The position numbers were made by a program, and so were the translations under genes. The notes beneath the pieces are model-generated. The model made no database searches. It saw only the letters and a program-made list of their open reading frames with translations, and was not told the DNA's origin. Positions 3,428 through 26,527 of a DNA stretch of 29,960 bases are shown here, piece by piece (within the stretch, counting starts at the first letter, position 1; every line of letters begins with the position of its first letter). Source of the DNA: a virus; the IMG/VR virus record IMGVR_UViG_3300044712_000210, positions 1 to 29,960 of that record. One strand, written 5' to 3'.

Positions 3428-3468
3428 AATCTATGTGTAAAAAAGAAGAGACCTTGTTCTTCTATTCG

Positions 3469-3539
3469 CACATCCTCTAGGAGTCGAACCCAGGCCTGCA
3501 GGTTTGGAATCTGCCGTGCTACCGTAACACTTAGGACAT
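3469..3539 (-). tRNA. tRNA-Trp (anticodon CCA)
   Basis: A 71-nt cloverleaf can be folded on the minus strand: acceptor ATGTCCT/AGGATGT (with G-U pairs), D stem GTGT/GCAC with GG in the loop, anticodon stem GCAGA/CCTGC with loop TTCCAAA (anticodon CCA), a 4-nt variable loop, and T arm CTGGG-TTCGACT-CCTAG. The last anticodon-stem pair is A-C. No CCA end is encoded; the genome continues CGA after a G discriminator. It has its own promoter (3599-3628) and terminator (3406-3427). Confidence 0.9.
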
Positions 3540-9272: not shown

Positions 9273-10307
9273 ATGGCAACTGAGAATATAGGTACTAAGT
9301 ACAACACTCAAATCCCGTCACTAACAGAAAATGCTGACATTCAGACAGCGTTAAAGATTTATCATTACGGGCAATCAACAGAGCCAACAAACCTTGTTGC
9401 GAACTCTGTAGCTGGTCATTTAAAAAATCTGGAAGACACCAAGATTGACATTGTTCCCATTCCAGTAACCTCTGGAAACAACAACTTAAATACCAAAACT
9501 ACATCTGGCTACTATTCTGTGCCAACCGCTAACGATGTCACTGGCGGTACTGGTTTTCCGCCATCAGCCACACCTGGTATGCTTACCGTAATTAATGATG
9601 GTAGCGGAATTGTTTATCAAACATACATCATGAGTAGCGGATCTACCCCAAAGTTTTATTGGAGAGGTTATTATAGTGGTGCCTGGTCAAACTGGATGCA
9701 GGCTTCTGATACAACTCACTCTCACGCAGAATTTGCATCTCTTGCTGGAGATATTGCAACAAAGCAGGCAACCATTACTGGTGCTGCGACATCTGTAACT
9801 AGTGCAAACCTTGCAGTATCGGCTGCACTTGTTTCTGACGCTGCTGGAAAGATTGCAGCATCATCTACTGTAAGTGCTACAGAGCTGGGGTACCTTGATG
9901 GTGTTACCTCAGCAATTCAGACTCAACTAAACTCAAAGGCACCACTTGCATCTCCAGCATTAACTGGAACTGCTACAGCATTTAACTTAACAGTAACTGG
10001 AACAACGTCTTTGGCAGCAACAACTTTAGGTGGAACCGTAACTGCAACTGGAATTACCATTACTGGTACAAACTCAAGCTTAGATCTAAGTGGTACAGGA
10101 ACTGCAACCTTGCCAGCATCAACATCTATTGGAAACGTTACATCCACAGAAATCGGGTATATTGACGGCTTGACATCTTCTGCACAAACTCAGCTTAACA
10201 ATAAACCATCTACTTTTAATGCTTCTGGAGCTACCTCTGGTGTAAAAATTTATATTCAATCTACAACACCAACTGGTATGGCTGCTGGAGATCTCTGGTT
10301 CTGGTGA
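9273..10307 (+). CDS. Tail fibre protein with pyocin-knob-like domain
   Basis: The 344-residue product has an N-terminal part about 1-65, a knob-like domain about 70-145 (GYYSVPT..., FYWRGYYSGAWSNWMQ), then low-complexity Thr/Ala/Gly beta repeats including two copies of a LGYLDG(V/L)TSxxQTQLN unit (about 208 and 290). It ends abruptly in GMAAGDLWFW. TATAAT at 9250 and GGTGA about 9 nt from the ATG precede it. The next gene opens only 5 nt after the stop with a related GDRVYF element, so this may be one half of a formerly fused fibre. Confidence 0.82.
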   Translation: MATENIGTKYNTQIPSLTENADIQTALKIYHYGQSTEPTNLVANSVAGHLKNLEDTKIDIVPIPVTSGNNNLNTKTTSGYYSVPTANDVTGGTGFPPSATPGMLTVINDGSGIVYQTYIMSSGSTPKFYWRGYYSGAWSNWMQASDTTHSHAEFASLAGDIATKQATITGAATSVTSANLAVSAALVSDAAGKIAASSTVSATELGYLDGVTSAIQTQLNSKAPLASPALTGTATAFNLTVTGTTSLAATTLGGTVTATGITITGTNSSLDLSGTGTATLPASTSIGNVTSTEIGYIDGLTSSAQTQLNNKPSTFNASGATSGVKIYIQSTTPTGMAAGDLWFW

Positions 10308-10312
10308 TCTAA

Positions 10313-11629
10313 GTGGGAGATAGAGTATATTTTCACCCATCAGGTGCACCAGATAATGGTTCTAACCGTACTGTTAGTAACAATAATGCTAGACCATTCA
10401 TTCAGGTAACAACAGTTGCTAATAGACCTGGAGATCCAATTGGATTTAATGCTTTTTCGGTTAACGGTGGATCCTACGACGAATGGTGGTGGTCTGGAAC
10501 AACAGTTCGTATTACTGGTCAAAACTATGTTGCTATGCGTGGTGGTAACCCAGGTACAGCTAATAACATGCCTGCATACGGTTATCTTGGAAACGGTACG
10601 CTACTTTCCACATGGACTGGTGGTATGGGTGGATATCTTGACTGGTATTATGTGGCACCAACCGCACCTAATGCACCATCTGCTTCAAGATCATCTAATG
10701 GAACATCTCTTACTGCAACAACAAACGGTGGATCATCTAACCGTGTTACTGCTTACGATGTAGCGTTAAATGGTGTAACTGATTGGAGTGCTAATGGAAC
10801 AGCCTTTAGCGTAAATGCTCATACAACATATAGTGTTATTGCTCGTGCTAGAAATGAAGACGGTTCATCTGGAAATAGTGGAACCACAACCTCTTATGGT
10901 ATTCCAACTGCACCACAGTCACCATCTGCAACAAGAAGTACTTCTGTGGCTGGAAGAATCTCTGTTTCATGGACAGCTCCTTCATATACTGGTGCAGGAA
11001 TTAACTATTACCACGTATATAGAAACAGTGCATATCTTGGTCAATATACATCGACATCAATCAATGACGATGGACTCACTAGGGGAACAACGTACTCTTA
11101 TACCGTTTATGCAAATAACTCAACTGGTTGGAGTCCAATTAGCTCCACTGCCTCGGCAGTAGCACCAGGTGTACCAAGTGCTCCAGGTACCCCATCTGTA
11201 ACAAGCAAGGTAGGAAGAACATTAACCATTAATTCGGCTAGAACGTCTTCCGATTATGGTAATTCAATTTCTGAATACAGAATTCAGTTAAGTACTGATG
11301 ATGGTGCTACGTGGAAAGGTTGGGATAATACTTCAAAGACCTTTACCGCAAATAACACTTATAACACTTTAGATGCCAGTGGAAACTTTACTTATCAGCT
11401 ATTAACTCCAGCTTTAACCTATAAATGGAGAACGTATGCTGTAAATAGTATTGGTACTGGAGATCTTGCAATTACAGCAACAGGAACATTTGTAGGTGCA
11501 GGTGGAAAGCGTTACACTGGTACTGCTTGGGAGCCAACAGCAACCTCAAAACGTTTTGATGGAACTAACTGGGTAGACTTTACAACAGCTAAAAGATATG
11601 ATGGAACTACTTGGGTAGATCTTACCTAA
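10313..11629 (+). CDS. Tail protein with FN3 domains and C-terminal Trp repeats
   Basis: The 438-residue frame starts at GTG 10313, 5 nt after the previous stop, with GGTGA 5 nt upstream; the next in-frame ATG would remove about 73 residues of a well-formed domain. Residues about 1-118 form a beta domain (VYFHPSGAPDNGS, YDEWWWSGTTV). Three FN3-like domains follow (about 120-200, 200-285, 285-395). The last 40 residues are a repeat of KRxxGTxWVD (three copies), a kind of C-terminal unit seen in tail tips of actinophages. Probably a receptor-binding or host-adhesion protein. Confidence 0.78.
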   Translation: MGDRVYFHPSGAPDNGSNRTVSNNNARPFIQVTTVANRPGDPIGFNAFSVNGGSYDEWWWSGTTVRITGQNYVAMRGGNPGTANNMPAYGYLGNGTLLSTWTGGMGGYLDWYYVAPTAPNAPSASRSSNGTSLTATTNGGSSNRVTAYDVALNGVTDWSANGTAFSVNAHTTYSVIARARNEDGSSGNSGTTTSYGIPTAPQSPSATRSTSVAGRISVSWTAPSYTGAGINYYHVYRNSAYLGQYTSTSINDDGLTRGTTYSYTVYANNSTGWSPISSTASAVAPGVPSAPGTPSVTSKVGRTLTINSARTSSDYGNSISEYRIQLSTDDGATWKGWDNTSKTFTANNTYNTLDASGNFTYQLLTPALTYKWRTYAVNSIGTGDLAITATGTFVGAGGKRYTGTAWEPTATSKRFDGTNWVDFTTAKRYDGTTWVDLT

Positions 11630-12284: not shown

Positions 12285-14345
12285 ATGGCTACTTTAACTA
12301 GAATGTACCAACGCAGAGGTACTGCTGCACAATGGGCTGATGTAGCTACTACAGTACTGCTTCAGGCTGGTGAGATCGGTTTAGAGACCGATACTGGCAA
12401 GTTTAAGATTGGTAACGGTAGTGCTGTTTGGTCTGCACTTAGTTACTACCTCAAAGATTCTGACAACGCTGGCATCTATGTAAAGCTTGCACCAGTTGGT
12501 CCTAGCTATAGTCAAAACATTACAGGTATCAACGTTTTAACTCCACAATCAAATTCTCAAACCCCACTTGTAGTTAGCGGTCTGTCTGGACAGTCGGCGG
12601 TATTGACAAGATGGAGAAACAGCTCAGACACCACTTTGGCTTCTATCGATGCTAGTGGTAAGATTACAGCAGTAGGTGCACTCTTTAATGGTGTAGTAAA
12701 TGTAAACAACAATAAGATTACTAATCTTGCTACGCCTACTTCAGACGCAGATGCTGTTACAAAAGCCTATGTGGATGATGCTATTGCTGGTTTGGCATGG
12801 AAGGAAGCAGTCCACCTCATTGCAGTGTCTAACGTAGCACTTACTGGGAATACTGGAACTCTTGTTATTGATGGTCACAGTGCACTGGATGCTACCGACT
12901 CTGGATATAGAATTCTTCTCACCAATCAAACAACAAGTACACAAAAGGGTATTTATGTTTACAACGATAACGGAACAACATATACCCTAACACGCTCTAC
13001 AGATGCAGATAGCCCTGCAGAACTAATTGGTGCATCTGTTTATGTTCAGGAAGGTACTACATACGGAACATCTTCGTGGGTTCAGTCAAACCACTACATG
13101 GACTCATTTGACGATCAAGCTTGGGTACAGTTCTCTGGTGCAGCTCTGATTACTGCTGGTACTGGTATGACCAAAACTGGAAATACTCTAGACGTAGTTG
13201 GTACATCTAACCGTATTACAGCAAACGCAGACTCTATTGATATTGCATCTACCTATGTTGGTCAAACATCTATCACTACCCTCGGAACTATTGCAACTGG
13301 TACCTGGAGTGCCACAACAATTGCAGCTAACAAGGGTGGTACTGGACAGACATCTTACGCTGTTGGAGATATTCTTTATGCCGATACAGTTTCAACTCTT
13401 GCCAAAAGATCTGCAAGTGCTACAGTAGGATTGCCACTGCTTTCTGCAGGTGCAAACACTGCACCAAACTATGGAACGGTGCCAACCGCAGGTATTACAG
13501 ATGACGCTGTAACATATGCAAAACTTCAAAATGTAAGTGCACAGTACCGTGTTCTTGGACGTATTTCTGCTAGTGCTGGAAACGCTGAAGAACTCACTCC
13601 AGATAATGTTATTACCTTAATTGGCCAGGGTACAACAAGTATCTCAATCTCTCGTATTCCAACTGGTACAACATCTTCAACAGTTGCACTTGGAGATCAC
13701 ACTCACACAATTGATCAACTTTCCGATGTCGTTATTACTGGTACCCCACAGACTCGCCAGGTTATTAAGTACAACGGTACAAACTGGGTTAACGAAGTTC
13801 CCTCTGGTGGTATTTCTGTTGGAGCGACTCCACCATCTCAGCCAGCTGCTGGTGATGCTTGGTTTGACTCTACCGATGGTGCTTTGTATGTTTGGTATGA
13901 TGACGGTGTAGATAATGATGGTGCTGGTCCTGGTACCTCTGCACAATGGGTACAGGTAAAGTCTAACTCAGCTCTTGAAGCTTCTTTGCTTACCCGTGTT
14001 AGTGCTCTTGAGTCTACAAATACAAACAATTCTTTTAATGTGCAAACAGCAAAAACTGCTGCGTACACACTTGGCAACGGAGATCAAAATGATCTTATTC
14101 AAATGAATACTGCAACAGCCGTTACGCTTTCAGTGCCAACCGATGCAACATATAATTTCCCAATTGGGACAAAGATTGAAATTTTGCAGGTAGGTGCAGG
14201 ACAAGTAACAGTCGCAGCTGTAACACCAGGAACAACAACTGTTAACGGTACACCAGGACTCAAGCTTCGTGCTCAGTGGTCACACGCAGTTCTTATTAAG
14301 AGAGCAGCAAATACATGGGTGCTTACTGGAGATCTAGCAGCTTAA
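12285..14345 (+). CDS. Long tail fibre with Mtd-like N-terminal domain
   Basis: The 686-residue product opens with a domain of the Mtd/tail-fibre N-terminal type (RRGTAAQWADVATTVLLQAG, EIGLETDTGKFKIGNGSAVW; about residues 8-60). A spacer leads to ITNLATPTSDADAVTKAYVD (about 144-164), frequent in marine and actinobacterial phage fibres, then a long beta-helical region, a WFDSTDGALYVWYDDG segment (about 525) shared with the type-A fibres, and a C-terminal beta domain. Start: TATTAT at 12264 and GGAG 6-8 nt upstream. Probably a trimeric receptor-binding fibre. Confidence 0.88.
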   Translation: MATLTRMYQRRGTAAQWADVATTVLLQAGEIGLETDTGKFKIGNGSAVWSALSYYLKDSDNAGIYVKLAPVGPSYSQNITGINVLTPQSNSQTPLVVSGLSGQSAVLTRWRNSSDTTLASIDASGKITAVGALFNGVVNVNNNKITNLATPTSDADAVTKAYVDDAIAGLAWKEAVHLIAVSNVALTGNTGTLVIDGHSALDATDSGYRILLTNQTTSTQKGIYVYNDNGTTYTLTRSTDADSPAELIGASVYVQEGTTYGTSSWVQSNHYMDSFDDQAWVQFSGAALITAGTGMTKTGNTLDVVGTSNRITANADSIDIASTYVGQTSITTLGTIATGTWSATTIAANKGGTGQTSYAVGDILYADTVSTLAKRSASATVGLPLLSAGANTAPNYGTVPTAGITDDAVTYAKLQNVSAQYRVLGRISASAGNAEELTPDNVITLIGQGTTSISISRIPTGTTSSTVALGDHTHTIDQLSDVVITGTPQTRQVIKYNGTNWVNEVPSGGISVGATPPSQPAAGDAWFDSTDGALYVWYDDGVDNDGAGPGTSAQWVQVKSNSALEASLLTRVSALESTNTNNSFNVQTAKTAAYTLGNGDQNDLIQMNTATAVTLSVPTDATYNFPIGTKIEILQVGAGQVTVAAVTPGTTTVNGTPGLKLRAQWSHAVLIKRAANTWVLTGDLAA

Positions 14346-14371: not shown

Positions 14372-15574
14372 ATGGCTCTTGATTTTCCTGCTAATCCGAC
14401 CAATGGTCAGATCTATGGTAGCTATACCTATAATTCAACGGTAGGTGCATGGCAATCTCGTGAAGATTCTAGAACTGTTGCTATTCTTTCATCTACCGTT
14501 CCAGTTTCCGCTAATCCTGGAGATATTTGGGTAAATACTAACGATGGCATTTCATTTGTTTATTATGACGATGGAACAAGTGCTCAATGGATGGAGTTGT
14601 TGCCTTCTGGTGTACCGCTGCTAGATACTAAAGCAGACATCTCAGGAGATACGTTTACTGGAAACATAATTGCACCAATATTTATTTCAAATGTTGCCAC
14701 TGGAACTGCCCCACTTACCGTATCATCAACTACTGCTGTCACTAATTTAAATGCTGATCTTCTTGATGGAAACCATGCATCAGCATTTTCTTTAACAACG
14801 CACACACATGATGACGTTGTTAGCAAAGGTGCTTTAGCTGCTGAGACTGGAAGGTCTGTTCACGATACTGGAATCTATACTTTTAATACTAACAACTCAT
14901 CATTAGGTGATTCAACACCAACAGCATACTGGTCTACCCTGGCATGGGGTAGGGGTGCTGCAGGATCTGCTGAGTTAGCGGCAAGCTGGACAACAAATGG
15001 AACAGAGCTATGGTATAGATCACTTAGAGACGTTGTGGATAACTGGTGGCCATGGAAGAAGATCTACAACTCTGGAACAGGTGTTCCAGCTGGGGATATT
15101 ACTTCTGGAACGCTAGCTTCTGCACGACTACCGTCTGGAACAGTGTTACAGGTTGTTGAATCTGGAACTGGTGCAAATACAGCAACAGTTACTGGACAAT
15201 ATACCTGGGGTAGTACTGGAATATCTGCCACAATTACACCAAGATCAACATCTTCTAGAATAAAGGTAACTGCCAATATTACTGCTAGCTGTTCGGCAGC
15301 TGGATGGGTTTTTATGAGAGTGCTTAGAGGGTCTACGCCAGTAGGAAACGGTACAGCTGGTGGAACTTTTAACTTCAGCACCCTAACATATATAGCTGAC
15401 TACGGAAGATTAGAACCAATGAACGCATGTTTTGTTGATAGCCCAGCTACAACTGCTGCAACAACATATACAATTCAATTTGCGGTATATACAGGAACTG
15501 GTTATCTAAATAGAAGAGGTGCAGATGCATTATTTGGTTCTTATTCAAACATTATATTAGAAGAAATTGCCTAG
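14372..15574 (+). CDS. Tail fibre, array member A1
   Basis: The 400-residue product opens with the type-A docking sequence (MALDFPANPTNGQIYGSYTY ...GAWQSREDS) and the GDIWVNTNDGISFVYYDDGT segment. A shaft carries PLTVSSTTAVTNLNADLLDG. A knob-like region (ELWYRSLRDVVDNWWPWKKI) is followed by a C-terminal head (about 250-400) with STSSRIKVTANI and DSPATTAATTYTIQF, a common phage fibre-head type. TATGAT lies about 10 nt upstream and there is no ribosome site. No small partner gene follows it. Confidence 0.88.
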   Translation: MALDFPANPTNGQIYGSYTYNSTVGAWQSREDSRTVAILSSTVPVSANPGDIWVNTNDGISFVYYDDGTSAQWMELLPSGVPLLDTKADISGDTFTGNIIAPIFISNVATGTAPLTVSSTTAVTNLNADLLDGNHASAFSLTTHTHDDVVSKGALAAETGRSVHDTGIYTFNTNNSSLGDSTPTAYWSTLAWGRGAAGSAELAASWTTNGTELWYRSLRDVVDNWWPWKKIYNSGTGVPAGDITSGTLASARLPSGTVLQVVESGTGANTATVTGQYTWGSTGISATITPRSTSSRIKVTANITASCSAAGWVFMRVLRGSTPVGNGTAGGTFNFSTLTYIADYGRLEPMNACFVDSPATTAATTYTIQFAVYTGTGYLNRRGADALFGSYSNIILEEIA

Positions 15575-15576
15575 TG

Positions 15577-15590
15577 TATAATTAAATTAT
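15577..15590 (+). promoter_or_regulatory. -10 element and palindromic joint before fibre B1
   Basis: TATAAT (15577-15582) is 6 nt before the ATG at 15589. ATAATT-A-AATTAT (15578-15590) is a perfect inverted repeat ending in the AT of the start codon. The same 13-mer occurs before A3 and B3. Confidence 0.7.
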
Positions 15591-16968
15591 GGCACTAGAT
15601 TTTCCAAGCTCTCCGACTAATGGGCAAACATATGGCAACTATTATTATGACGCTACCGTAGGTGCTTGGAATTCATTTTCATCTACTACCAATACTATTC
15701 CTAGTACCCTGAAAAATTTATCAATCACAACAGATACAGCATCGACAATTCCATTAACTGTTAAGGGTGCAACAAGTCAGACTGCAGATTTACAGCAATG
15801 GCTAGATTCTACTGGTGCCATTAAAGCCGAAGTTGCTTCAGATGGAACTATAACAGCTACAAGTTTAACTCTTACTAATGATCTTACCGTTGCAAACGGG
15901 GGTACAGGAGCAGGAACATTTACAACAGGTGCATACCTTAAAGGCAATGGTACTAATGCTATTCAAGCACAGACAGGCATTCCGTTTGCCGATGTAACCA
16001 TGCAAGCTATTCCAGCAGCAGCAGACCTAAACACTTATACAACTCAGGGTATCTATCATCAGGGTAGCGATGCACAGGCATCTGGTGGAACAAATTATCC
16101 AATAGCTAGAGCTGGCTTGTTGGAAGTCTATCAGTCTGGTACCGACGGTTCTGGGTTTACATACCAACGGTACACTGTTTATCAATCATTCCATGCAGTA
16201 TATACAAGAGCAAAATATACAACGACTTGGGGTGCATGGGAAGAAATACCAACTGGAACAGTTACTGTTGCTCAAGGTGGTACTGGTGCAACTACTCTAA
16301 CTTCGGGGGCATATCTAAAAGGAGCAGGTACATCAACTATAACAGCACAAACAGGCATACCAGCAACAGATATCACTTCTGGAATACTTCCAATAGCAAG
16401 GGGTGGTACTGGGGTAGCTAATGGTACTGGTCTTATACCTATTGTTCCTACAAGCGTTACAATGGGGTCTGGAACAGCAACAAGAGATACTAACACAGGA
16501 AGAGTGACTTTTTCTGGTGGAGGGATCATTCTTAATGGAGTTTTTTCGAATACATACACAAACTATATAGTAAGAATTGAAATGACTGGAACTAGCCAAC
16601 CAAACGACTATGTGTACTGGAGGTTTACACAGGGTGGCTCATACACAACGGTAGCTGCTTATTATGGTGGATGTGCCTATAACCAGGGAACTACGTTGTC
16701 TACATTCCAGAGCAATCAGGCCACTGCATATGTAAGTATGGGTTATGCAGCTGCTTCTGGTGGCAATACTTATGCAATCAATGTATTTGCACCATATAAC
16801 TCAGCTGGTGGAAATAGACCAACTGTAAGTTTTCACTCTTCTTATGAAAACACTTCAGTTTGGGGAACATCTAAGTGGAATGGAGGAGCCACATTTGACG
16901 GATTCTGGTTTTATGCAGCTGGAAATGGAACTTTGACGGGGAATGTGACAGTTTATGGACTACAGTAA
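15589..16968 (+). CDS. Tail fibre, array member B1
   Basis: The 459-residue product opens with the type-B docking sequence (MALDFPSSPTNGQTYGNYYY ...GAWNSFSST) followed by IPSTLKNL. One unit PLTVKGATSQTADLQQW and two units VANGGTGAGTFTTGAYLKG / VAQGGTGATTLTSGAYLKG form the shaft. A knob-like motif (YTRAKYTTTWGAWEEI, about 205-220) precedes a C-terminal head starting at LIPIVPTSVTMGSG and ending TVYGLQ. The head resembles that of B2, including its end. Its last codons contain the ATG of the next gene (14-nt overlap). Confidence 0.88.
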   Translation: MALDFPSSPTNGQTYGNYYYDATVGAWNSFSSTTNTIPSTLKNLSITTDTASTIPLTVKGATSQTADLQQWLDSTGAIKAEVASDGTITATSLTLTNDLTVANGGTGAGTFTTGAYLKGNGTNAIQAQTGIPFADVTMQAIPAAADLNTYTTQGIYHQGSDAQASGGTNYPIARAGLLEVYQSGTDGSGFTYQRYTVYQSFHAVYTRAKYTTTWGAWEEIPTGTVTVAQGGTGATTLTSGAYLKGAGTSTITAQTGIPATDITSGILPIARGGTGVANGTGLIPIVPTSVTMGSGTATRDTNTGRVTFSGGGIILNGVFSNTYTNYIVRIEMTGTSQPNDYVYWRFTQGGSYTTVAAYYGGCAYNQGTTLSTFQSNQATAYVSMGYAAASGGNTYAINVFAPYNSAGGNRPTVSFHSSYENTSVWGTSKWNGGATFDGFWFYAAGNGTLTGNVTVYGLQ

Positions 16969-17152
16969 CAAAGAAGACTTTTTATCGATTGATCCATCAT
17001 TGTTTGATGTGGTAGATCAAGATCATCCAGAAAAATTGCCTTCACCAGATGAAATTTTTGCATCTCAGATAATTTTAAAGGAAAAAGCTTTAGCTAAACT
17101 AGAAAAGTTAGGACTTACGGAAGACGAAGCTAAGGCCGTAATTGGTATATAA
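16955..17152 (+). CDS. Small fibre-associated protein with GLTEDEA tail (1 of 3)
   Basis: The 65-residue acidic protein (MDYSNKEDFLSIDPSLFDVV...) overlaps the B1 fibre by 14 nt. The last 24 residues, KALAKLEKLGLTEDEAKAVIGI, are shared with the other two small proteins of the array while the rest differs. The position after the variable fibre head suggests a tail-fibre assembly chaperone or capping partner specific to that head. The C-terminal motif resembles a UBA-like helical hairpin. Its last codon and stop (ATA TAA) supply the TATAAT of the next fibre. Confidence 0.8.
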   Translation: MDYSNKEDFLSIDPSLFDVVDQDHPEKLPSPDEIFASQIILKEKALAKLEKLGLTEDEAKAVIGI

Positions 17153-17153
17153 T
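17148..17153 (+). promoter_or_regulatory. -10 element before fibre A2
   Basis: TATAAT is 6 nt before the ATG at 17160 and includes the preceding TAA stop. Confidence 0.7.
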
Positions 17154-17159
17154 TAAACT

Positions 17160-18227
17160 ATGGCTCTTGATTTTCCTGCAAATCCTACTAATGGACAAGT
17201 CTATGATTCGTACATATATAACTCAACCGTAGGTGCATGGCAAGCACGTGAGGATTCTGCCACGGTAGCAACAATATCTACAGTTCTACCAGCATCAGCT
17301 AATCCAGGTGATATATGGTATGATAATGATGATGGTACTTCTTATATTTATTATGACGATGGTACGTCTGCTCAATGGGTAGAGTTGCTCTCTTCTGGCC
17401 TACCGCTGCTAAACACCAAGGCTGATCTAGCTGGTGCAACTTTTACTGGAAATGTAACTGCACCAAGATTTATTTCTAATGTTGCAACAGGAACATCTCC
17501 ACTTACTGTAACTTCAACAACAGCTGTTGCTAATCTTAATGCCGACCTTCTTGACGGAAATCATTCTACAGCCTTTGCTCCAGCAGCTGGCTCTACAAAC
17601 ATTACAACTCTTGGAACAATCACATCTGGAACCTGGAATGGTTCTGTAGTTGGCGTTCAATATGGAGGAACTGGTGCAAATACACTGACTTCTGGTGGAT
17701 ACCTTAAGGGTGCTGGCACTGGTCCAATTACCTCACAAAGCGGTATTCCTGCAGGAGACATTACATCTGGAACTATTTCATACTCTAGACTACCAGCAGG
17801 AATAATTAGGCAAGTTGTTTACGGTTCTACAGGAACACAGGTTACAAGTTCTACAAATGCTTCATGGACAGATACTGGGCTTACCGCCACAATTACTCCA
17901 ACATCATCTACAAGTAAAATTTTAATAATTCTCAATCAAAATGGAATTACAAAACAAACAAGTGCAAACATTGAAAGTGCTTTACAGCTTAAACTTTTAA
18001 AAAATGGTGTAGAGTTTGCTACATGGCCAGGAAACTTGATTGGATATTCCCCCTCAGCTGGATACTTGGCAGAGCTTGGAGTGGGCTATACATTATTGGA
18101 TTCTCCTGCTACTACGTCTGCGTTAACTTATAAGACACAGTTCAAAAATTATGTCAACGCATCTTTTGTTTCTGTTCAACATTATGGAGGAACATCATCA
18201 ATAACATTAATGGAGATTTTACAATGA
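17160..18227 (+). CDS. Tail fibre, array member A2
   Basis: The 355-residue product has the type-A N-terminus (MALDFPANPTNGQVYDSYIY), GDIWYDNDDGTSYIYYDDGT, LLNTKADLAGATFTGNVTAP, NLNADLLDGNH, and one YGGTGANTLTSGGYLKGAG unit. The C-terminal head (about 225-355) is of the same class as A1 (TSSTSKILIIL, DSPATTSALTYKTQF) but clearly diverged, consistent with different receptor specificity. It overlaps the next small gene by 4 nt (ATGA). Confidence 0.88.
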   Translation: MALDFPANPTNGQVYDSYIYNSTVGAWQAREDSATVATISTVLPASANPGDIWYDNDDGTSYIYYDDGTSAQWVELLSSGLPLLNTKADLAGATFTGNVTAPRFISNVATGTSPLTVTSTTAVANLNADLLDGNHSTAFAPAAGSTNITTLGTITSGTWNGSVVGVQYGGTGANTLTSGGYLKGAGTGPITSQSGIPAGDITSGTISYSRLPAGIIRQVVYGSTGTQVTSSTNASWTDTGLTATITPTSSTSKILIILNQNGITKQTSANIESALQLKLLKNGVEFATWPGNLIGYSPSAGYLAELGVGYTLLDSPATTSALTYKTQFKNYVNASFVSVQHYGGTSSITLMEILQ

Positions 18228-18478
18228 GTCACGAAGATTTTATATTGGCTTTGAGTCATCTAGGATTTGATAATGGATTTTCTATATCTGGAAATGAAGA
18301 GATAGAAATAGTTGTTTGGGAACATGACCAGCCAAAACCTACCAATATAGAAGTGCAGAAAGCACTCAAAGAAGCACAAGAACAAATCATAGCACTGCCA
18401 CCAAAAGAATCTGCACTAATCAAATTGCAAAATCTAGGCCTTACAGAAGAAGAGGCCAGAGCAATTGCTGGTGTATAA
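18224..18478 (+). CDS. Small fibre-associated protein with GLTEEEA tail (2 of 3)
   Basis: This 84-residue protein starts in an ATGA overlap with fibre A2. Its N-terminal 55 residues (MSHEDFILALSHLGFDNGFS...) are unique; the C-terminus ALIKLQNLGLTEEEARAIAG matches the other two small proteins. Like them it is acidic and without membrane segments. A chaperone or adaptor role for the A2 head is inferred from coupling and context. Confidence 0.8.
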   Translation: MSHEDFILALSHLGFDNGFSISGNEEIEIVVWEHDQPKPTNIEVQKALKEAQEQIIALPPKESALIKLQNLGLTEEEARAIAGV

Positions 18479-18479
18479 T
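18474..18479 (+). promoter_or_regulatory. -10 element before fibre B2
   Basis: TATAAT (from GTA TAA T) is 6 nt before the ATG at 18486. Confidence 0.7.
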
Positions 18480-18485
18480 TGACTT

Positions 18486-20288
18486 ATGCCTTTAGATTTT
18501 CCAAGCTCCCCAACAAATGGCCAGGTATATGGTAATTACTACTATAACTCTGCTAGAGGTGCTTGGAATGCTCTGCTTCCTGCTGCTACCCCCAACTTTT
18601 TTACTAATGCCACTTTAAACACTTCTACCCTTGTAGATGCTACAGCAACTGGCTCATTAATGTCAACAACACCATTAACGGTGGTCGGACTTTCTGGTCA
18701 AACAGCTAATTTACAAGAATGGAAAAATAGTTCTGGTACTGTAGTTGCAGCAGTAACACCATCTGGAGCATTAACTGGATATGGTGCAAACTTAATGCAA
18801 AGCTTTGTAACTACAAGAGTTCCTCTTACAGTAAAGGGAAGTAGTGGTCAAACTGCTAACCTGCAAGAATGGCAAAATTCTTCTGGAACTGTTCAGTCAT
18901 ATGTTGATTCAGCAGGAAATATTAACTTTAGTGGTAGCGGATCTTTTGCTCAAGCAAGCACTGGTAGAGCAATTTTTGTGACTAATTCAGCATCAACAAT
19001 TCCTCTTACTGTAAAGGCAGCAGCCTCACAAATCGCAGACATTCAACAATGGCAATCCTCAACTGGGTCGGTATTGTCAGAAATCAACAGTGCTGGTGAA
19101 CTTCAAGTACCCAGAATTGGTGTAGGTTCTGTAATGCCTACTACAACAATGCTTCAATCAACTGCATCTGCAGCTACCAATGTTCCAATTGTTGCAAGAG
19201 GGGCAACATCTCAGTCGGCTAATCTTCAAGAATGGCAAAATACTGGCGGTACTGTATTGTCAAGCATTGATTCTTCTGGTGCATTGAATACAACAGCAAT
19301 AACAGATTCAGGATTTAACAGAGTGCTAAATCCTTCAGGCGGTGTGTTTACTACAGGAATAAACGTATACACTGGTGCAATTAGGATTACCCTTCCAGTT
19401 GGTTGGACAAGTCATATGCATAAGTTTAATGTCAGCGTATTTGACTATAATAATTTAAAGTCTTTTGATGTCTCTATAGCTGGTTACAATTTTACTGGTG
19501 GTACCTGGGTAAATCCAACTGCATACATATTGGGTAATCAAGATGTTTCTGTCAACTATACTGTAAGGTTTGGATATACAGCTGGAGGTAGAGCTTGTAT
19601 CTATATTGGTGAAACAAATTCTAGCTGGAATTATCCACAAATTGCTGTAAACAATGTATTAGTTGGATTCAGCACATCTTCTTCAGCGTGGTTGTCTGGA
19701 TGGACAGTTGATTTTGTTACAGGTTTTGAAAATATTACACAAACTGTATCTAATACACAAATTAGTGCTGGACTTGTACCGATTATTCCAACATCTGTAT
19801 CTGTAAACTCAGGCTCTGCTTCTGTGTCTGCAAACGGAACAATAAATTTTTCTGGTGGTGTAACAAACTTAAGAGTTAATGGTTGTTTTTCTTCGGCATA
19901 TCGATACTACAGGGTTATGTTTGAGATAGAGGCAACAAGTTCTGGTATGGACTTAATGTTTCAACTTATTAATCTTGGATCTGGATATACCTATGGAAGA
20001 ATTGGTACCTATAGTGGTCCTAATTTTACACAAACATTTGCTTCTGGTAATGCCGCAGCCATGATGTCAAGATCGAATCAGGGTAATGGTTCTGGCGGAT
20101 GGATGGATGTTATTAATCCAGCACATGCAGGAACTAAAAGATTTTTATCTCAATCTGTCGATAGTGGATTTTTGCTTTGGCTGGGATCTATCAATGGTAA
20201 TGGCGGTAGCTATTCAGATTTTCAGATTTACTCACTTCAGGGTGGAACTTTAACGAATGGGAGTTTAAAAGTTTATGGATATAGATAA
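18486..20288 (+). CDS. Tail fibre, array member B2, with four shaft repeats
   Basis: The 600-residue product opens with MPLDFPSSPTNGQVYGNYYY. The shaft (about 57-270) holds four copies of a roughly 34-residue repeat, PLTVxGxSGQTANLQEWxNS followed by SGTVxxxVxxSGxL. The third is most diverged. A middle domain (about 280-420) has GRACIYIGETNSSWNYPQI. The head begins LVPIIPTSVSVNSGS (about 433) and ends SLKVYGYR, like B1. The last codons contain the ATG of the next small gene (14-nt overlap, the same geometry as B1). Confidence 0.88.
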   Translation: MPLDFPSSPTNGQVYGNYYYNSARGAWNALLPAATPNFFTNATLNTSTLVDATATGSLMSTTPLTVVGLSGQTANLQEWKNSSGTVVAAVTPSGALTGYGANLMQSFVTTRVPLTVKGSSGQTANLQEWQNSSGTVQSYVDSAGNINFSGSGSFAQASTGRAIFVTNSASTIPLTVKAAASQIADIQQWQSSTGSVLSEINSAGELQVPRIGVGSVMPTTTMLQSTASAATNVPIVARGATSQSANLQEWQNTGGTVLSSIDSSGALNTTAITDSGFNRVLNPSGGVFTTGINVYTGAIRITLPVGWTSHMHKFNVSVFDYNNLKSFDVSIAGYNFTGGTWVNPTAYILGNQDVSVNYTVRFGYTAGGRACIYIGETNSSWNYPQIAVNNVLVGFSTSSSAWLSGWTVDFVTGFENITQTVSNTQISAGLVPIIPTSVSVNSGSASVSANGTINFSGGVTNLRVNGCFSSAYRYYRVMFEIEATSSGMDLMFQLINLGSGYTYGRIGTYSGPNFTQTFASGNAAAMMSRSNQGNGSGGWMDVINPAHAGTKRFLSQSVDSGFLLWLGSINGNGGSYSDFQIYSLQGGTLTNGSLKVYGYR

Positions 20289-20514
20289 TGCACAAGATAT
20301 AACGCCAGAAGATTCTGTTGCACCAGTTTATCTGATACCGCTAACAGAAGAAGAGATTGTTCAAAGACAAGAAGAGTATGAAAAATTTTTAAAGCAAGAG
20401 CAAGCAGAAAAAGATCAGCAGGTTCAAAAAGAGCAAAACCTTAAGGCTGCCATAGAAAAACTTTCAAAACTTGGTTTAACTGAAGAAGAGGCCAAAGCTA
20501 TTGCTGGTGTATAA
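20275..20514 (+). CDS. Small fibre-associated protein with GLTEEEA tail (3 of 3)
   Basis: The 79-residue protein (MDIDNAQDITPEDSVAPVYL...) has a strongly charged central helix (EEIVQRQEEYEKFLKQEQAE) that could form a coiled coil, then the shared ending AIEKLSKLGLTEEEAKAIAG. It overlaps fibre B2 by 14 nt exactly as the first small protein overlaps B1. Its GTA TAA end makes the next TATAAT. Confidence 0.8.
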   Translation: MDIDNAQDITPEDSVAPVYLIPLTEEEIVQRQEEYEKFLKQEQAEKDQQVQKEQNLKAAIEKLSKLGLTEEEAKAIAGV

Positions 20515-20523
20515 TTAAATTAT
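20510..20523 (+). promoter_or_regulatory. -10 element and palindromic joint before fibre A3
   Basis: TATAAT (20510-20515), 6 nt, then ATG at 20522; the 13-mer ATAATT-A-AATTAT is identical to that before B1 and B3. Confidence 0.7.
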
Positions 20524-21724
20524 GGCTCTTGATTTTCCAGCAAACCCTACAAACGGACAAATATATGGTTCATATGTCTATAACTCAACTGTAGGTGCTT
20601 GGCAATCTAAGGAAGATCCTGCAACTGTGGCGGTAACGTCACCGACAGCACCATTGACTGCTAATAATGGAGATATTTGGTACAACACTAATACTGGAGT
20701 ATCTTATGTTTATTATGCTGACGGCACAAGTGCACAATGGGTTGAGATTATTTCTTCTGCTATACCTGCCTTAAGCTCAAAAGCTAATCTTATTGGAGAT
20801 AACTGGTTTAGTGGTGGCGTAAACTATTATGGTACTGGAGACCTTAATGGTACTTTTATTTCCTCAAATACTGGGCGTGCACAGTTTACAGTTAACAATG
20901 CAGCCGCCACTCCTTTAACTGTTAAGGGAACAACTTCACAAACTGCAGATTTGCAACAGTGGATAAACGTAAGCAATACAGTTCTTGCAGAAGTAGATTC
21001 TGCAGGAATAATTACAGCTCCAAGATTTGTTTCAACACAAGCAACAGGTACTGCTCCGTTTTCTGTTGCATCTACAACTGCTGTTGCAAACCTTAATGCC
21101 GATCTTCTTGATGGTCAACATGGAAGCGTATATTCGCCAGCAGGTATGGTAAGTCAGTTTGCAGGTGCAACAGCACCAACTGGTTGGTTATTGTGTGATG
21201 GCACTGCAGTATCCAGAACAACATATGCTGGATTATTTGCAGCTATTGGAACAAATTATGGAACTGGTGATGGATCTACCACATTTAACCTTCCCAATCT
21301 TAAGGGAAGAATTCCAGTAGGTTTAGATTCTGCACAAACCGAATTTAATACATTAAATGCACCTGGTGGAGTTAAGTCAACATCTTTGACAGTTAGCCAT
21401 ATACCACAGCACAATCACTCAATCGATCACGACCACGCAGCTTTTACTGCATCTGGTGGAGATCACAGCCACCTATTCTTCGGTGACGACGGTGCTTCAA
21501 GTCCAGGTGGTTATAGTAGAAGCGTTGCAATTGGCTATGATGCAACGAGTAACAATACTACTGGTAACGGTGGAGATTTTGTTACTAAGGGGTCTGGTGC
21601 TCACTCACACACAATTGATGTGCCAGCATTTAGTGGAACATCTGGAAATTATGGGTCAGCAACAGTTACTCCAGTATCTGCATTGCAGCCATATATCGTT
21701 ATGAACTATATCATTAAGGTATAA
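20522..21724 (+). CDS. Tail fibre, array member A3, with tail-collar head
   Basis: The 400-residue product has the type-A N-terminus (MALDFPANPTNGQIYGSYVY) and GDIWYNTNTGVSYVYYADGT. The shaft includes PLTVKGTTSQTADLQQW. The head is a phage tail-collar domain (about 208-265: GWLLCDGTAVSRTTYAGLFA, then TTFNLPNLKGRIPVG) followed by a His-rich segment (HIPQHNHSIDHDHAAF, and GAHSHTID), typical of metal-binding fibre tips. It ends LQPYIVMNYIIKV. No small partner follows. Confidence 0.9.
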   Translation: MALDFPANPTNGQIYGSYVYNSTVGAWQSKEDPATVAVTSPTAPLTANNGDIWYNTNTGVSYVYYADGTSAQWVEIISSAIPALSSKANLIGDNWFSGGVNYYGTGDLNGTFISSNTGRAQFTVNNAAATPLTVKGTTSQTADLQQWINVSNTVLAEVDSAGIITAPRFVSTQATGTAPFSVASTTAVANLNADLLDGQHGSVYSPAGMVSQFAGATAPTGWLLCDGTAVSRTTYAGLFAAIGTNYGTGDGSTTFNLPNLKGRIPVGLDSAQTEFNTLNAPGGVKSTSLTVSHIPQHNHSIDHDHAAFTASGGDHSHLFFGDDGASSPGGYSRSVAIGYDATSNNTTGNGGDFVTKGSGAHSHTIDVPAFSGTSGNYGSATVTPVSALQPYIVMNYIIKV

Positions 21725-21733
21725 TTAAATTAT
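21720..21733 (+). promoter_or_regulatory. -10 element and palindromic joint before fibre B3
   Basis: TATAAT (21720-21725) contains the preceding GTA TAA; ATG at 21732 after 6 nt. Confidence 0.7.
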
Positions 21734-22739
21734 GCCCATCGACTTTCCAAGTTCTCCAACAAACGGACAGGTATCTGGTAACTACTACTATGATGCCACT
21801 ACTGGTGCTTGGAGATCTTTTAGTTCTACTGTTAATCCAATTCCCAGTACCCTCAAAAATTTGACGGTATCTAGTAGTGAAACAACTGGAGTATCTTTAA
21901 AAGTAACACCATTCACTACATCATCAGTAAACCTACAAGAATGGTATAACACATCTTCTAATATTGTAGCTAGCATGAATGTGGCTGGAGATCTAACGGT
22001 TAACAGTATTACACTAACAACAGATCTTTCTGTTGCTAATGGCGGAACTGGTGCTAGTTCATTTACTTCTGGTGCATACATTAAGGGTGCAGGAACGGGT
22101 GCTTTAACAGCTCAGGTCGGTATTCCTGGAAGCGATATTAGTAGTGGTCAGGTTAGTTCAAGTTTTGGTGGTGCACCAACTGGTGGAATTATGCCATTTG
22201 CTGGAGCAGCTGCACCATCTGGATGGCTTTTGTGTGAAGGTCAAGAGTTGGCAATTTCATCTTTTACGGCTCTCTACAATGTATTAACTGCAACTGGAAC
22301 TGTTTTCCCTTATGGCACAAACACAAATGGTTCTGGTGCAGCAGGAACAACTCACTTTAGGTTGCCAGACCTTCGTGGTGATGTGCCAGTTGGAAAGACT
22401 GCATCGGGAACATTTGCAACACTTGGTTCTAGCGGCGGTGTTGAGTCAGTAACTCTAACAGCTGCTCAGTCTGGTGTTCCTGCCCACTCCCACCCTAATA
22501 CACTGTCTGACCCAGGTCACTCACACGTTATTCGTGGTCCTGTTTGGAGAGAGTCTGGCTTCAACGTCACAATGCGTACCGACGGTGGTGCAGGTCAATC
22601 TGTTGACCAGGGTGCAAGAACCAACACCGACTATACTGGTATGACTATTAGTAATGCAAACAACGTAGCAGCAAATGCCTCTCAAGCCCACACCAACCTT
22701 CAACCATATATCGTTCTTAACTACATTATCAAAACCTAG
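21732..22739 (+). CDS. Tail fibre, array member B3, with tail-collar head
   Basis: The 335-residue product has the type-B N-terminus (MPIDFPSSPTNGQVSGNYYY) and IPSTLKNL as in B1, a diverged NLQEWYNTSSN repeat, and VANGGTGASSFTSGAYIKG. The head is a tail-collar domain (GWLLCEGQELAISSFTALYN, HFRLPDLRGDVPVG, about 158-225) with a shorter His-containing tip (VPAHSHPNTLSDPGHSHVI) and the ending LQPYIVLNYIIKT, like A3. It closes the fibre array. Confidence 0.9.
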   Translation: MPIDFPSSPTNGQVSGNYYYDATTGAWRSFSSTVNPIPSTLKNLTVSSSETTGVSLKVTPFTTSSVNLQEWYNTSSNIVASMNVAGDLTVNSITLTTDLSVANGGTGASSFTSGAYIKGAGTGALTAQVGIPGSDISSGQVSSSFGGAPTGGIMPFAGAAAPSGWLLCEGQELAISSFTALYNVLTATGTVFPYGTNTNGSGAAGTTHFRLPDLRGDVPVGKTASGTFATLGSSGGVESVTLTAAQSGVPAHSHPNTLSDPGHSHVIRGPVWRESGFNVTMRTDGGAGQSVDQGARTNTDYTGMTISNANNVAANASQAHTNLQPYIVLNYIIKT

Positions 22740-22768: not shown

Positions 22769-25700
22769 ATGACTACCGCTTCTAATTCATACGCAGAAAA
22801 GGTTTTTGCCGAGCACCCAATCGCACTATGGTCTCTTGACGATCCAATTGATTATGTATCTCTAATTACAGAAGATGATCGCAATATGCGAAATGGCTGG
22901 GTATTTAAAAATGCCAGCAATACAACTCTTACACCTTCTACTGTTGCAACTTCATATGCTACAACATCTACGTGGTTACCAGCATTTCCAGAGCCAGCTT
23001 TCGAAAGCTATGCCAATCAACTTTTTGTGCCACCATCTGGTGACCAACTAAAATGCTTAAGTCCAGTAATAGCTCAGCAAGCAGATTTGGAAATCTCTAA
23101 AACAATATCTATTTCAACTTATATTGACACATTTAATAGAGCTATTGATCTTAGATTGGGTATTGAGTATACAGATTCGTCATCTCAAGTAATTAGAGAA
23201 ACAAAGAACATAGATCTTTTAAGTATTAGTAACTGGCAGTTCGTTTCACAGTCATTTGAGTTGCCAAACGCATTTACAGATTTAAAAATAGTTGTAGAGA
23301 TAACGTTCAACTCAGCACCTTCTGGTTATTATGTTTTGCTAAATGGTATTTCTTTTGGTCAAAGATCAGAACAGTTTAATGTCGAATCTCTTGGCGTTAA
23401 TCCGTCAACAATTCCTACAGCTATTGCGGTGTCTGGATATGGTGTAGGTACAAAGTCTTATGGTTTACAAGAGATTAACGGATATTATATGGCAAACACA
23501 AACAAGATGTTTGCTAACAACTCTAGCTTGCCAATGGTATTTGGTTCTGAAAGCTGTACCAAGATTACCCCAAACCCAGAGGGTCCATCTCTCATTTTGC
23601 CAGGGTATGGATTCATGAACGTCAATGGACAATACTCTGATTTAACATTTGAAACATGGTTAAAGATACAGTCATCTGCAACAGAGCCAAGACGTATTCT
23701 TGGGCCAATTGCATCTACAGATGGTCTCTATGTTAACGACTCATTCTTAGCACTAAAGGTTGGCAAATATAACGGTTCTTATTATGTTGGAGAATGGGAC
23801 AGACCAATGCTGGTTGCTATTCGACTTTCTGGTACCGTTGCTAGTTTGACAGTTAATGGCGAAGAAGTTATTACAATTAACATTGATCCAGACCAGGTTA
23901 ATTTTCCAGCCAAACTAAGTGGAACTGGAAAGGACCAAGACTGGATTGGTTTTTATGCTTATAACGATGTTCCAATTATTGAGATTGACTGTGTCGGAAT
24001 TTATCCATACGAGGTTCCAGCAATTGTTGAGAAGCGTCGTTGGGTATATGGGCAGGGTGTAGAAACATCTGAAAACATTAACGGTTCTAGCCTAGGAAAG
24101 ATCATGTCGGTTGACTATACTTTCTCTAAGTATGCCAAGAACTATATCTATCCAGATCTTGGTAAATGGAACCAGGGTATTACAGAAAACATTGTAGCTG
24201 ACAATCTAACGCTATCTCTGCCACAGTACGAACTGCCATCAATTGTGTTTAACAATAAAACACTAGATCAATGGTATACGGACAACTCTTCTCTTTCATC
24301 AATCTTTGGAACGTACTTATCATTAAAACCAAATTCTGGATGGAACTCAACAGATGGTTACATTCTTTTCTCTAGCCTTAATTTGCTACAGCAAGATGTA
24401 AAAGCTTTTTACGGTTTGTTCGAATCTAATGCATCAGTCTCAACTAAGCAAACATTGTTTATGCTTGAAAACACAACCACAGGAGAATCTCTTGAAATAA
24501 CCTTGCAGGGTGCTACTACTGCATACACGTATCGATACTTGTCACAGGTTAATGGCATAGTTACAACACAGGAAGAGCTTATCTATAGCGATACCCTGCA
24601 TGTTCCTGGAGACTTCCTGTTTGCTGGTTTAGATATTAATAAGTTTGCACAAAACTTTGGCGGTAGAGTTGCAAACTTCCTAGGATCAAAACAATCAATT
24701 AAGCTATATGTTGGTGGTAAGAAAGAGTTTACAAATACTTTTGCTGGAAACATTTATCGTATTGGGTTTAGCACAGCACGCAACCTAGAAAAGATCTCTA
24801 ATGTGTTTTCGTCAACTGGTCTTCCTGCAGGATTTAACGCCTTTGATGCCAACTTTGTCTCTGATGCTGGAAGCTCTATTTTTACTAACGACAATCCATC
24901 TCAAAGTCTTTACAACTGGAATGTTTATCTAGATGGTGGAGATGAATATTTTGGCAATGACTCTGGTATCTATGAGCAGGAAATTGATGGCGGTAGCGTA
25001 TACAGCCTCCTGGTCTCAAACATTCTTAATCACGTTGGAAGCTACACCCTGGTTCCCAAGATTTACCTAGAAAACTTTATGCTAGATATTGCGGTTAACA
25101 GCTATTGGCAGGACTACGTACCACTGACATACTTTAGTAAATATATTAATAGTGGTACACAGAATAGTGACGGTAGTGTGAACACATACCAAGATCTTGA
25201 CTTTATTCAATTTAATATTGACTACCCTGCTATTCAAAAATTCTTGACCAACTCGTTTGATACAACTAGTTCACTTGTTAGAACCTTTGTATCTTTTCAA
25301 GAATTAAAAAATGATGCAGCAATCAGTGTAAGCAGATTTAACAAGATAGTCTTTGCACCCAAGAATGGAGTGGTGGTACCAGGAGATGACTGGCAGACTA
25401 TCAATGACGATGGAACAATTGATTATGTAAAGTATGAGGTCGTAGATGACACTATTATTTATCCCCCATCAAATATGAGCTTTAAGCAGGTATCGATTGT
25501 TTTGCATGTTGAGCTTTTGTCAAACGGTATCATGGAGAACCCAGTTAAAATTAGATCTCTTCAGTTAGCCTCACAGGTACTAGATGGTGCACAGGCAAAC
25601 CCTGTAGGAACTAAGTTTGGTTTGGATGTTTTCCCATACAGAAAGTCTTCTGAGTTCTATGACTACAAGACAAGAAATCCGTACAGCATTTACAAGGGCA

Positions 25701-26527
25701 GCACCCCTTACATGTACCTGACCTCAACTAGTGGATTAAGATTAAGAGGTTTCTACGACGGTGATCTTGACCGTGGTATTGAAATTCCAATTAACACTAG
25801 TTCTACATCATTCTTTAAGATTGCTGCATGGCAGATACTTTTGAGATATGACGACGAAGCATTCCCTCAGTCTGTTACAGAAATAATGGAAATCTTTGCA
25901 AAGTCAAAAACTCTGGAAACATCTGGAGAAGACTATATTCGTCACATCAAGTTCTACCTTGTACCAGACGACGAACTCCAAGATAGAGGTCGTATTTATG
26001 CAATCGATGCTGACACTGGTCTTCAGCAAAGCGACATCACCTTCTATATTAATGGCAAGAAGGTTCTCAATCCAGTATTAGATAGAAAGACTTGGACAGC
26101 ACTGTCCTTCTCGTTTGATACCCCAGTAGACTTCTCTGGATATCCAGGGGCATTTAGAGTGACTGGTCCAATCATTTTTAACAATGTGTCCTACTACCAG
26201 TCATCTGAAGCTGACGAGGCATCTCGTTCTGTATATCGTCAGTGGGCAGATGTAAAGATTACGGATAACCTTGATAAAGACTGGGCTTATTGGAAGAACC
26301 TGGATGCAGACCCAGCGGTGGCAGGAACTCAGGCGTATACTTGGCGTAACTTGCTTGTTGTTTCATCACAAGGTTTTGCTGGTTTTGACACAAAGTCTGT
26401 TTACAAGAAGTACACTGGTACAGATCGTATCGTTATTGACAGTGACACACAATTTAGGTTTAAAAATTACGAATACGTGGTCTATAAAGACATCTCATGG
26501 CAGTCAAATATTATCACACCTGTATAA
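22769..26527 (+). CDS. Large minor tail protein with LamG-like domains
   Basis: The 1252-residue product is the largest in the window. AGGAG is 7 nt before the ATG. It starts AEKVFAEHPIALWSLDDPID, an element of actinophage minor tail proteins. A concanavalin/LamG-like jelly roll is visible about residues 275-425 (DLTFETWLKIQSS, GEWDRPMLVAIRLSGTVASL, TVNGEEV), and a second similar segment about 1065-1180 (DITFYINGKKVL). No transmembrane segment is seen. It is likely a structural tail-tip or central baseplate protein. Its terminal GTA TAA T again reads TATAAT. Confidence 0.8.
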   Translation: MTTASNSYAEKVFAEHPIALWSLDDPIDYVSLITEDDRNMRNGWVFKNASNTTLTPSTVATSYATTSTWLPAFPEPAFESYANQLFVPPSGDQLKCLSPVIAQQADLEISKTISISTYIDTFNRAIDLRLGIEYTDSSSQVIRETKNIDLLSISNWQFVSQSFELPNAFTDLKIVVEITFNSAPSGYYVLLNGISFGQRSEQFNVESLGVNPSTIPTAIAVSGYGVGTKSYGLQEINGYYMANTNKMFANNSSLPMVFGSESCTKITPNPEGPSLILPGYGFMNVNGQYSDLTFETWLKIQSSATEPRRILGPIASTDGLYVNDSFLALKVGKYNGSYYVGEWDRPMLVAIRLSGTVASLTVNGEEVITINIDPDQVNFPAKLSGTGKDQDWIGFYAYNDVPIIEIDCVGIYPYEVPAIVEKRRWVYGQGVETSENINGSSLGKIMSVDYTFSKYAKNYIYPDLGKWNQGITENIVADNLTLSLPQYELPSIVFNNKTLDQWYTDNSSLSSIFGTYLSLKPNSGWNSTDGYILFSSLNLLQQDVKAFYGLFESNASVSTKQTLFMLENTTTGESLEITLQGATTAYTYRYLSQVNGIVTTQEELIYSDTLHVPGDFLFAGLDINKFAQNFGGRVANFLGSKQSIKLYVGGKKEFTNTFAGNIYRIGFSTARNLEKISNVFSSTGLPAGFNAFDANFVSDAGSSIFTNDNPSQSLYNWNVYLDGGDEYFGNDSGIYEQEIDGGSVYSLLVSNILNHVGSYTLVPKIYLENFMLDIAVNSYWQDYVPLTYFSKYINSGTQNSDGSVNTYQDLDFIQFNIDYPAIQKFLTNSFDTTSSLVRTFVSFQELKNDAAISVSRFNKIVFAPKNGVVVPGDDWQTINDDGTIDYVKYEVVDDTIIYPPSNMSFKQVSIVLHVELLSNGIMENPVKIRSLQLASQVLDGAQANPVGTKFGLDVFPYRKSSEFYDYKTRNPYSIYKGSTPYMYLTSTSGLRLRGFYDGDLDRGIEIPINTSSTSFFKIAAWQILLRYDDEAFPQSVTEIMEIFAKSKTLETSGEDYIRHIKFYLVPDDELQDRGRIYAIDADTGLQQSDITFYINGKKVLNPVLDRKTWTALSFSFDTPVDFSGYPGAFRVTGPIIFNNVSYYQSSEADEASRSVYRQWADVKITDNLDKDWAYWKNLDADPAVAGTQAYTWRNLLVVSSQGFAGFDTKSVYKKYTGTDRIVIDSDTQFRFKNYEYVVYKDISWQSNIITPV

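Follow-up and report, generated by a model that had tools for sequence, protein, structure and literature searches.

A phage receptor-binding island with six fiber genes, probably assembled from self-contained cassettes of which some carry a small gene matched to the fiber head

How six different fiber genes come to stand in one row, and whether they act as partners, as alternatives, or as independent units, is the question raised by the stretch of DNA analyzed here (the window), an IMG/VR record 29,960 bases long with a GC content of 41%. The whole window gave no match in a near search of GenBank phages. Its portal protein is 47% identical to those of Streptomyces phages belonging to the Stanwilliamsviridae (e.g., Yaboi), which makes an actinobacterial host likely; the best reading of the window is an uncultured phage distantly related to that family. 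Three sister phages (contigs L009, L011, and L145) have the same neighboring genes as the window, and their backbone genes are 48 to 76% identical to its own. The contigs are metagenomic. The window also encodes a tRNA-Trp (cca) at 3468-3539 on the minus strand, and its open reading frames 9273-10307 and 10313-11629 adjoin, divided at ...GDLWFW; the same split recurs in the relatives L091, L092, L105, and L022 and is possibly a frameshift or a conserved gene split. Upstream of the portal gene, the relative L093 (positions 3-2632) carries three tandem glycine-rich proteins, another kind of repeated adhesin-like gene.

The features of the locus are given below. Fibers are called A or B after their N-terminal anchor, and heads were named and assigned by C-terminal motif (LMEI, VYG, or tail collar).

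12285-14345, plus strand: gene U, with an Mtd_N domain, the conserved upstream border of the slot (70% identical in L009, 61% in L011)
directly before A1, plus strand: TAAACT-N6 start signal
14372-15574, plus strand: fiber A1, with A anchor, second domain, shaft, and LMEI-class head, without a small gene behind it; starts as TAAACT-N6-ATG
15577-15588, plus strand: TATAAT-N6 start signal of B1
15589-16968, plus strand: fiber B1, with B anchor, shaft, and VYG-class head (88 to 89% identical to a head in L009)
16955-17152, plus strand: x1, 65 amino acids, VYG type, sharing 14 nt with the end of B1; in L009, the gene that follows the matching head is 52% identical to it
17148, plus strand: TATAAT-N6 start signal of A2
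17160-18227, plus strand: fiber A2, with A anchor, second domain, and LMEI-class head
18224-18478, plus strand: x2, 84 amino acids, Pfam XkdW (6.3e-6), overlapping A2 by ATGA (4 nt)
18474, plus strand: TATAAT-N6 start signal of B2
18486-20288, plus strand: fiber B2, with B anchor, repeated PLTV..SGQTANLQEW shaft units, an extra domain, and VYG-class head
20275-20514, plus strand: x3, 79 amino acids, VYG type, overlapping the end of B2 by 14 nt
20510, plus strand: TATAAT-N6 start signal of A3
20522-21724, plus strand: fiber A3, with A anchor, second domain, and tail-collar head (73% identical to L009 fiber 6)
21720, plus strand: TATAAT-N6 start signal of B3
21732-22739, plus strand: fiber B3, with B anchor and tail-collar head (54% identical to the head of an A-type fiber in L009)
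22769-26527, plus strand: gene D, 1,252 amino acids, the conserved downstream border of the slot (48 to 54% identical in L009, L011, and L145)

All six open reading frames that a previous, sequence-only reading had described as fiber genes are intact and lie on the plus strand at the coordinates given there, and with their common N-terminal anchor and differing C-terminal heads they have the layout of a modular multifiber array; their function as fibers is presumed from this makeup. That reading had grouped the heads as A1 with A2, B1 with B2, and A3 with B3, and the C-termini within each pair are indeed homologous (32% identity, z = 18; 28%, z = 8.5; and 34%, z = 12.5, respectively), both members of the last pair matching the Pfam Collar domain (4.6e-23 and 1.9e-14). 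The LMEI heads match orf22 of PDB entry 9efk (4e-15). A model of the VYG head (pLDDT 85) resembled lectin/SPRY-like beta-sandwiches (Z of about 7 to 8.7), which are a common arrangement, and no fold is claimed. To these features the present analysis adds the three small genes x1 to x3, a TANNNT-N6-ATG sequence at all six starts, and the extra domain of B2. The latter (residues ~272 to 432, window 19299-19781) is 43% identical to distal subunits of the long tail fiber in Vibrio phages, phiKT1024 among them; B2 may have two binding domains. We consider it rather likely that the locus is a receptor-binding island of self-contained cassettes, each composed of a start signal, an anchor, a shaft, and a swappable head, and in some cases closed by a small gene matched to that head.

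The start signals are the first element of the proposed cassettes. TATAAT-N6-ATG occurs seven times on the plus strand of the window, against 0.26 expected, and not at all on the minus strand; as a background, TANNNT stands 6 or 7 nt before 7% of ATGs. Across the four arrays, 17 of 23 fiber starts have a TANNNT separated from the ATG by six bases exactly; of the remaining starts, the majority run into or directly adjoin the gene before them, or else show a Shine-Dalgarno-like stretch. For the phage family, in a set that is not fully dereplicated, the spacing between TATAAT and ATG peaks at 6 to 7 nt (52 of 630 genes, against no more than 2 at each spacing from 0 to 5 nt), and further peaks at 9 and 17 nt are probably due to redundant orthologous genes. 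A TANNNT located some 12 bp before the start codon is a mark of leaderless genes, which are common in Actinobacteria (PMC3160421), and all six fiber genes of the window have it at that distance. Since this is the published leaderless geometry, each cassette may be transcribed as a unit of its own, with the overlapping small gene read along, and the fiber mRNAs would be leaderless. It is also possible, although in our view unlikely, that the hexamer and its six bases are an AT-rich spacer inherited with duplicated 5' ends, without promoter activity, and that the array is a single operon. In favor of this, the copies are paralogous and the junctions short, and scans of the array for sigma-70 promoters and terminators returned nothing convincing, two-hexamer sigma-70-like sites not being in excess. 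However, the hexamer has been kept while silent sites just downstream have strongly diverged, the sister phages have the same geometry, also ahead of unrelated small genes, and the spacing peak at 6 to 7 nt extends across the family.

The small genes x1, x2, and x3 share the C-terminal end KL.xLGLTE.EAkAixG. A scan of IMG/VR with the C-terminal end of the small proteins only yielded 80 loci, and nearly all of the small genes in them lie directly behind a fiber-like gene. Fifty-six nonredundant fiber/small-gene pairs with an LMEI or VYG head (among them L235, which ends in IIAMEILA and was placed in LMEI by hand) were used for a nearest-neighbor test of class. The N-terminal region of the small protein gave the correct class of the upstream head in 54 of 56 pairs, and in 55 of 56 when neighbors were limited to heads less than 40% identical, a result reached in none of 5,000 label permutations; the first 60 residues of the fiber itself were right in 36 of 56, close to the 33 of 56 that the majority class alone would give. 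This test by class is far clearer than a Mantel correlation, which was modest between this N-region and the head (r = 0.24; 0 of 2,000 permutations) and 0.08 between N-region and anchor. Identical or near-identical anchors also occur with different heads, each followed by its matching small gene (L172/L185, L185/L200, and L199/L215), and pairs with the same anchor and different head classes have different small genes. Among loci collected by anchor or protease and not by the small gene, every one of the eight complete VYG heads has a small gene behind it. Behind LMEI heads there is often a small gene with the N-region W...D.Y..l.W, some of these proteins ending otherwise (..AVKEKYPKP), with an end that resembles the one encoded after the LMEI-like head of P-SSP7. 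The LMEI head of A1 and some elsewhere lack a small gene, as do most collar heads. In the cultured pelagiphage Kolga EXVC016S, an A1-like head has an x homolog directly behind it (gp20-gp21), and searches of GenBank phages with x3 and another VYG-type small protein gave no matches. No description of head-to-small-gene matching was found in the literature searched, which was covered in part.

Two further small proteins were observed at these loci. PSSP7_040 of P-SSP7 (L248:2502-2792), encoded behind a head gene, has a C-terminus (..KDKYPKP) like that of the small proteins whose genes follow LMEI heads in L011, L022, and L145. A 90-amino-acid protein beginning LTEAETKALAYVAYDPQEW, 74 to 81% identical across the sisters (L009:8175-8447, L011:9751-10023, and L145:16-285), overlaps the start of the next A-type fiber and not the end of the preceding one; it was not seen in the window.

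A small gene that directly follows a fiber gene and is matched to its head instead of its anchor has the arrangement of a fiber chaperone, and we infer that the small proteins are head-matched fiber chaperones. One of them, x2, passes the Pfam cutoff for XkdW (PF09636; 26.3 bits against 24.6), a family whose function is given as unknown (PMC8190038). Neither x1 nor x3 matches XkdW up to an E value of 0.1, and XkdW matches are limited to LMEI-type small proteins, most of them being weak. In the model of x2, which is of middling confidence (pLDDT 72), a helix and two short strands precede three helices; the top structural match of this model is itself XkdW (2HG7; Z of 4.9, rmsd of 3.1 over 55 residues), which is a weak one. 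The alignment of the x proteins gave no credible match in the PDB and no sequence homology with Pam3 gp25 or with any other chaperone of known structure. The structure of Pam3 gp25, determined together with its fiber, has a variable N-domain that holds the distal fiber and a conserved helical C-domain that trimerizes (PMC9608196); the layout is the same, and with no homology detected the likeness is one of analogy.

It is improbable, but conceivable, that the small proteins are instead parts of the virion, such as adhesins at the tip or caps that remain on the fiber. Tfa of Mu remains bound and perhaps contacts the receptor, and a role as transient caps has been proposed for A5-like chaperones (PMC10579305); a permanent subunit would explain the matching to head classes equally well. 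However, the small proteins are short (mostly 62 to 86 amino acids) and showed no adhesin-like domain. For the chaperone reading, we hypothesize more broadly that XkdW and the LGLTE-tailed proteins, very small phage proteins that are widespread, are head-class-specific chaperones with an exchangeable N-region on a common helical end, and that this lineage stacks autonomous promoter-anchor-head-chaperone cassettes in a single slot and changes its host range by cassette gain or swap. We regard this larger proposal as evenly poised.

The anchors tell how old the array may be. A-type N-termini are 68 to 74% identical to one another over about 85 amino acids, whereas A and B are 51 to 72% identical over a region confined to about the first 29 to 54. 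What truly distinguishes them is a second domain (GD[IVL]W..YYDDGTS.QW, residues ~35 to 85) that is present in A and not in B. The sequence-only reading had separated the two types by FPAN and FPSS motifs; the types are real in the window, but the tripeptide fails to mark them in the sister phages. In a tree of 23 anchors from the four phages, built on 34 columns and with finer branching beyond its resolution, all 11 B rows form one clade (87/86) and every A row, each carrying the second domain, falls outside it. The A/B types are far beyond chance, and the split is old. Silent sites between anchors are strongly diverged (pS of 0.5 to 0.9 in nearly all pairs), so the copies themselves are old, and the A anchors are under purifying selection (dN/dS of 0.09 to 0.13 over 34 codons); all six genes are probably still in use. 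A search of the PDB with the anchor alignment returned no match.

The strict A-B-A-B-A-B order of the window is present as had been described, and had been taken as a sign that an A-B pair was duplicated twice, with A and B as heteromeric or two-site partners and with new heads acquired by the last pair. For three genes of each type, however, strict alternation has a probability of 0.10 and is not beyond chance. The same slot holds 7, 6, and at least 4 fiber genes in the sisters, so that copy number varies between relatives, and order is not kept: the three sister arrays read AAABBAB, BABAAB, and ABAB, and alternation across them without the window is not significant (P = 0.28). In other relatives the slot is filled by quite different genes, or fiber genes lie elsewhere. 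Gene D had no relatives by direct search of IMG/VR and GenBank phages and is present in the sister phages, which were found through other genes. As fiber number, order, and slot content differ between relatives, the slot between genes U and D reads as a variable receptor-binding island, although four arrays are few for such a comparison.

The heads have a history different from that of the anchors. For five of the six, the nearest head is in another phage and not in the same array: B1 (88 to 89% to the head in L009 against ~27 to 28% at best within the array), A3 (73% against 32%), B3 (54% against 34%), A2 (49% against 32%), and A1 (35% against 32%; 68 against 55 bits); for B2 there is a tie. 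The value for B1 stands out against the backbone identity of the same phages. The B1 head recurs together with x1 behind a different shaft in L009, the DNA being 70 to 80% identical over most of the head and 46 to 70% over x1, with the shaft not alignable over ~360 nt. Heads also cross between anchor types, since the closest relative of the B3 head sits on an A-type fiber in L009, and in this the suggestion that heads are interchangeable was borne out. The closest anchors, on the other hand, lie within their own genome. This is what head exchange predicts, presumably by recombination, and it counts against a simple duplication of pairs, to which we give little credence. Alternation within the window, the separate A and B groups of the tree, and the supported clade formed by anchors A1, A2, and A3 (97/93) agree with such a duplication, and each of the four arrays has the two types in near-equal numbers (A:B of 3:3, 4:3, 3:3, and 2:2), which permits, but does not establish, partnership. 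Against it are the sister orders, the strong divergence of silent sites, and the A1/A2 and B1/B2 heads, which are no nearer to one another than to heads of other phages. That the fibers are alternatives made one at a time through inversion, a diversity-generating retroelement, or phase switching is very improbable: many heads on common anchors and the Mtd_N domain of gene U would suit it, but a scan of the array for long near-perfect inverted repeats found none, no reverse transcriptase was noticed among the window's open reading frames (without a dedicated search), the six genes run in one direction with intact starts, and the anchors are under purifying selection.

We therefore return to the reading of self-contained cassettes, which would operate as follows. 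Each cassette would be expressed from its own TANNNT-N6-ATG signal in leaderless-promoter geometry and would encode a conserved anchor of ~30 residues, of type A with the second domain or type B without it, followed by a repetitive shaft and an exchangeable head; the anchors would dock all fibers to the tail. In B1 and B2, with VYG heads, and in A2, one of the two with LMEI heads, the cassette would be closed by the overlapping small gene, whose product would bind its own head class through a class-specific N-region, while its conserved C-terminal segment, modeled as helices, would bring three chains together. A new LMEI or VYG head would in that case work best when its matched small gene came along, and head and small gene would be exchanged with other phages as a block.

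If this is true, a testable function would be available for XkdW and related tiny phage genes, which now carry annotations such as hypothetical or unknown, and a rule would state which small gene has to accompany a given fiber head. The island would also represent a natural way to stack receptor-binding proteins, with a two-type anchor, promoters of their own, and helpers matched to the heads. In annotation, sequence alone would suffice to pair heads with small genes in uncultured phages, and the array suggests how such viruses swap their host-recognizing parts.

Among known systems, the Stanwilliamsviridae (Yaboi) resemble the window in the portal protein; among sequenced phages, A1 and B2 have distant partial matches only, which are not in the Stanwilliamsviridae, and x3 has none. 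XkdW, a protein of PBSX, is like x2; x1 and x3 have a different N-region. Marine metaviromic islands (PMC3909814) similarly combine a hypervariable host-recognition region with fibers, C1q-like heads, and XkdW genes; in the parts of that account considered here, the XkdW genes are merely listed as unknown, and neither cassette structure nor matching is described. The tail spike proteins of the Ackermannviridae are alike in that several receptor-binding proteins per phage have conserved N-terminal parts and exchangeable ends, and recombination between neighboring genes has been seen there by experiment (PMC11414711). The window differs in having two N-terminal types in several copies together with small matched genes, in a copy number (4 to 7) and order that vary between sisters, and in that no enzymatic spikes were recognized. 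The closest parallels to the small genes are Pam3 gp24/gp25 (PMC9608196), where a chaperone with a variable fiber-binding N-part and a conserved helical C-part is paired with a fiber, and Alteromonas phages V22 and A5 (PMC10579305), in which a chaperone-fiber pair is common to unrelated phages. The chaperones of V22 and A5 have 195 to 240 amino acids, compared to 65 to 84 for the x proteins, and the window also differs from Pam3 and V22/A5 in having several different fiber/small-gene pairs in one array.
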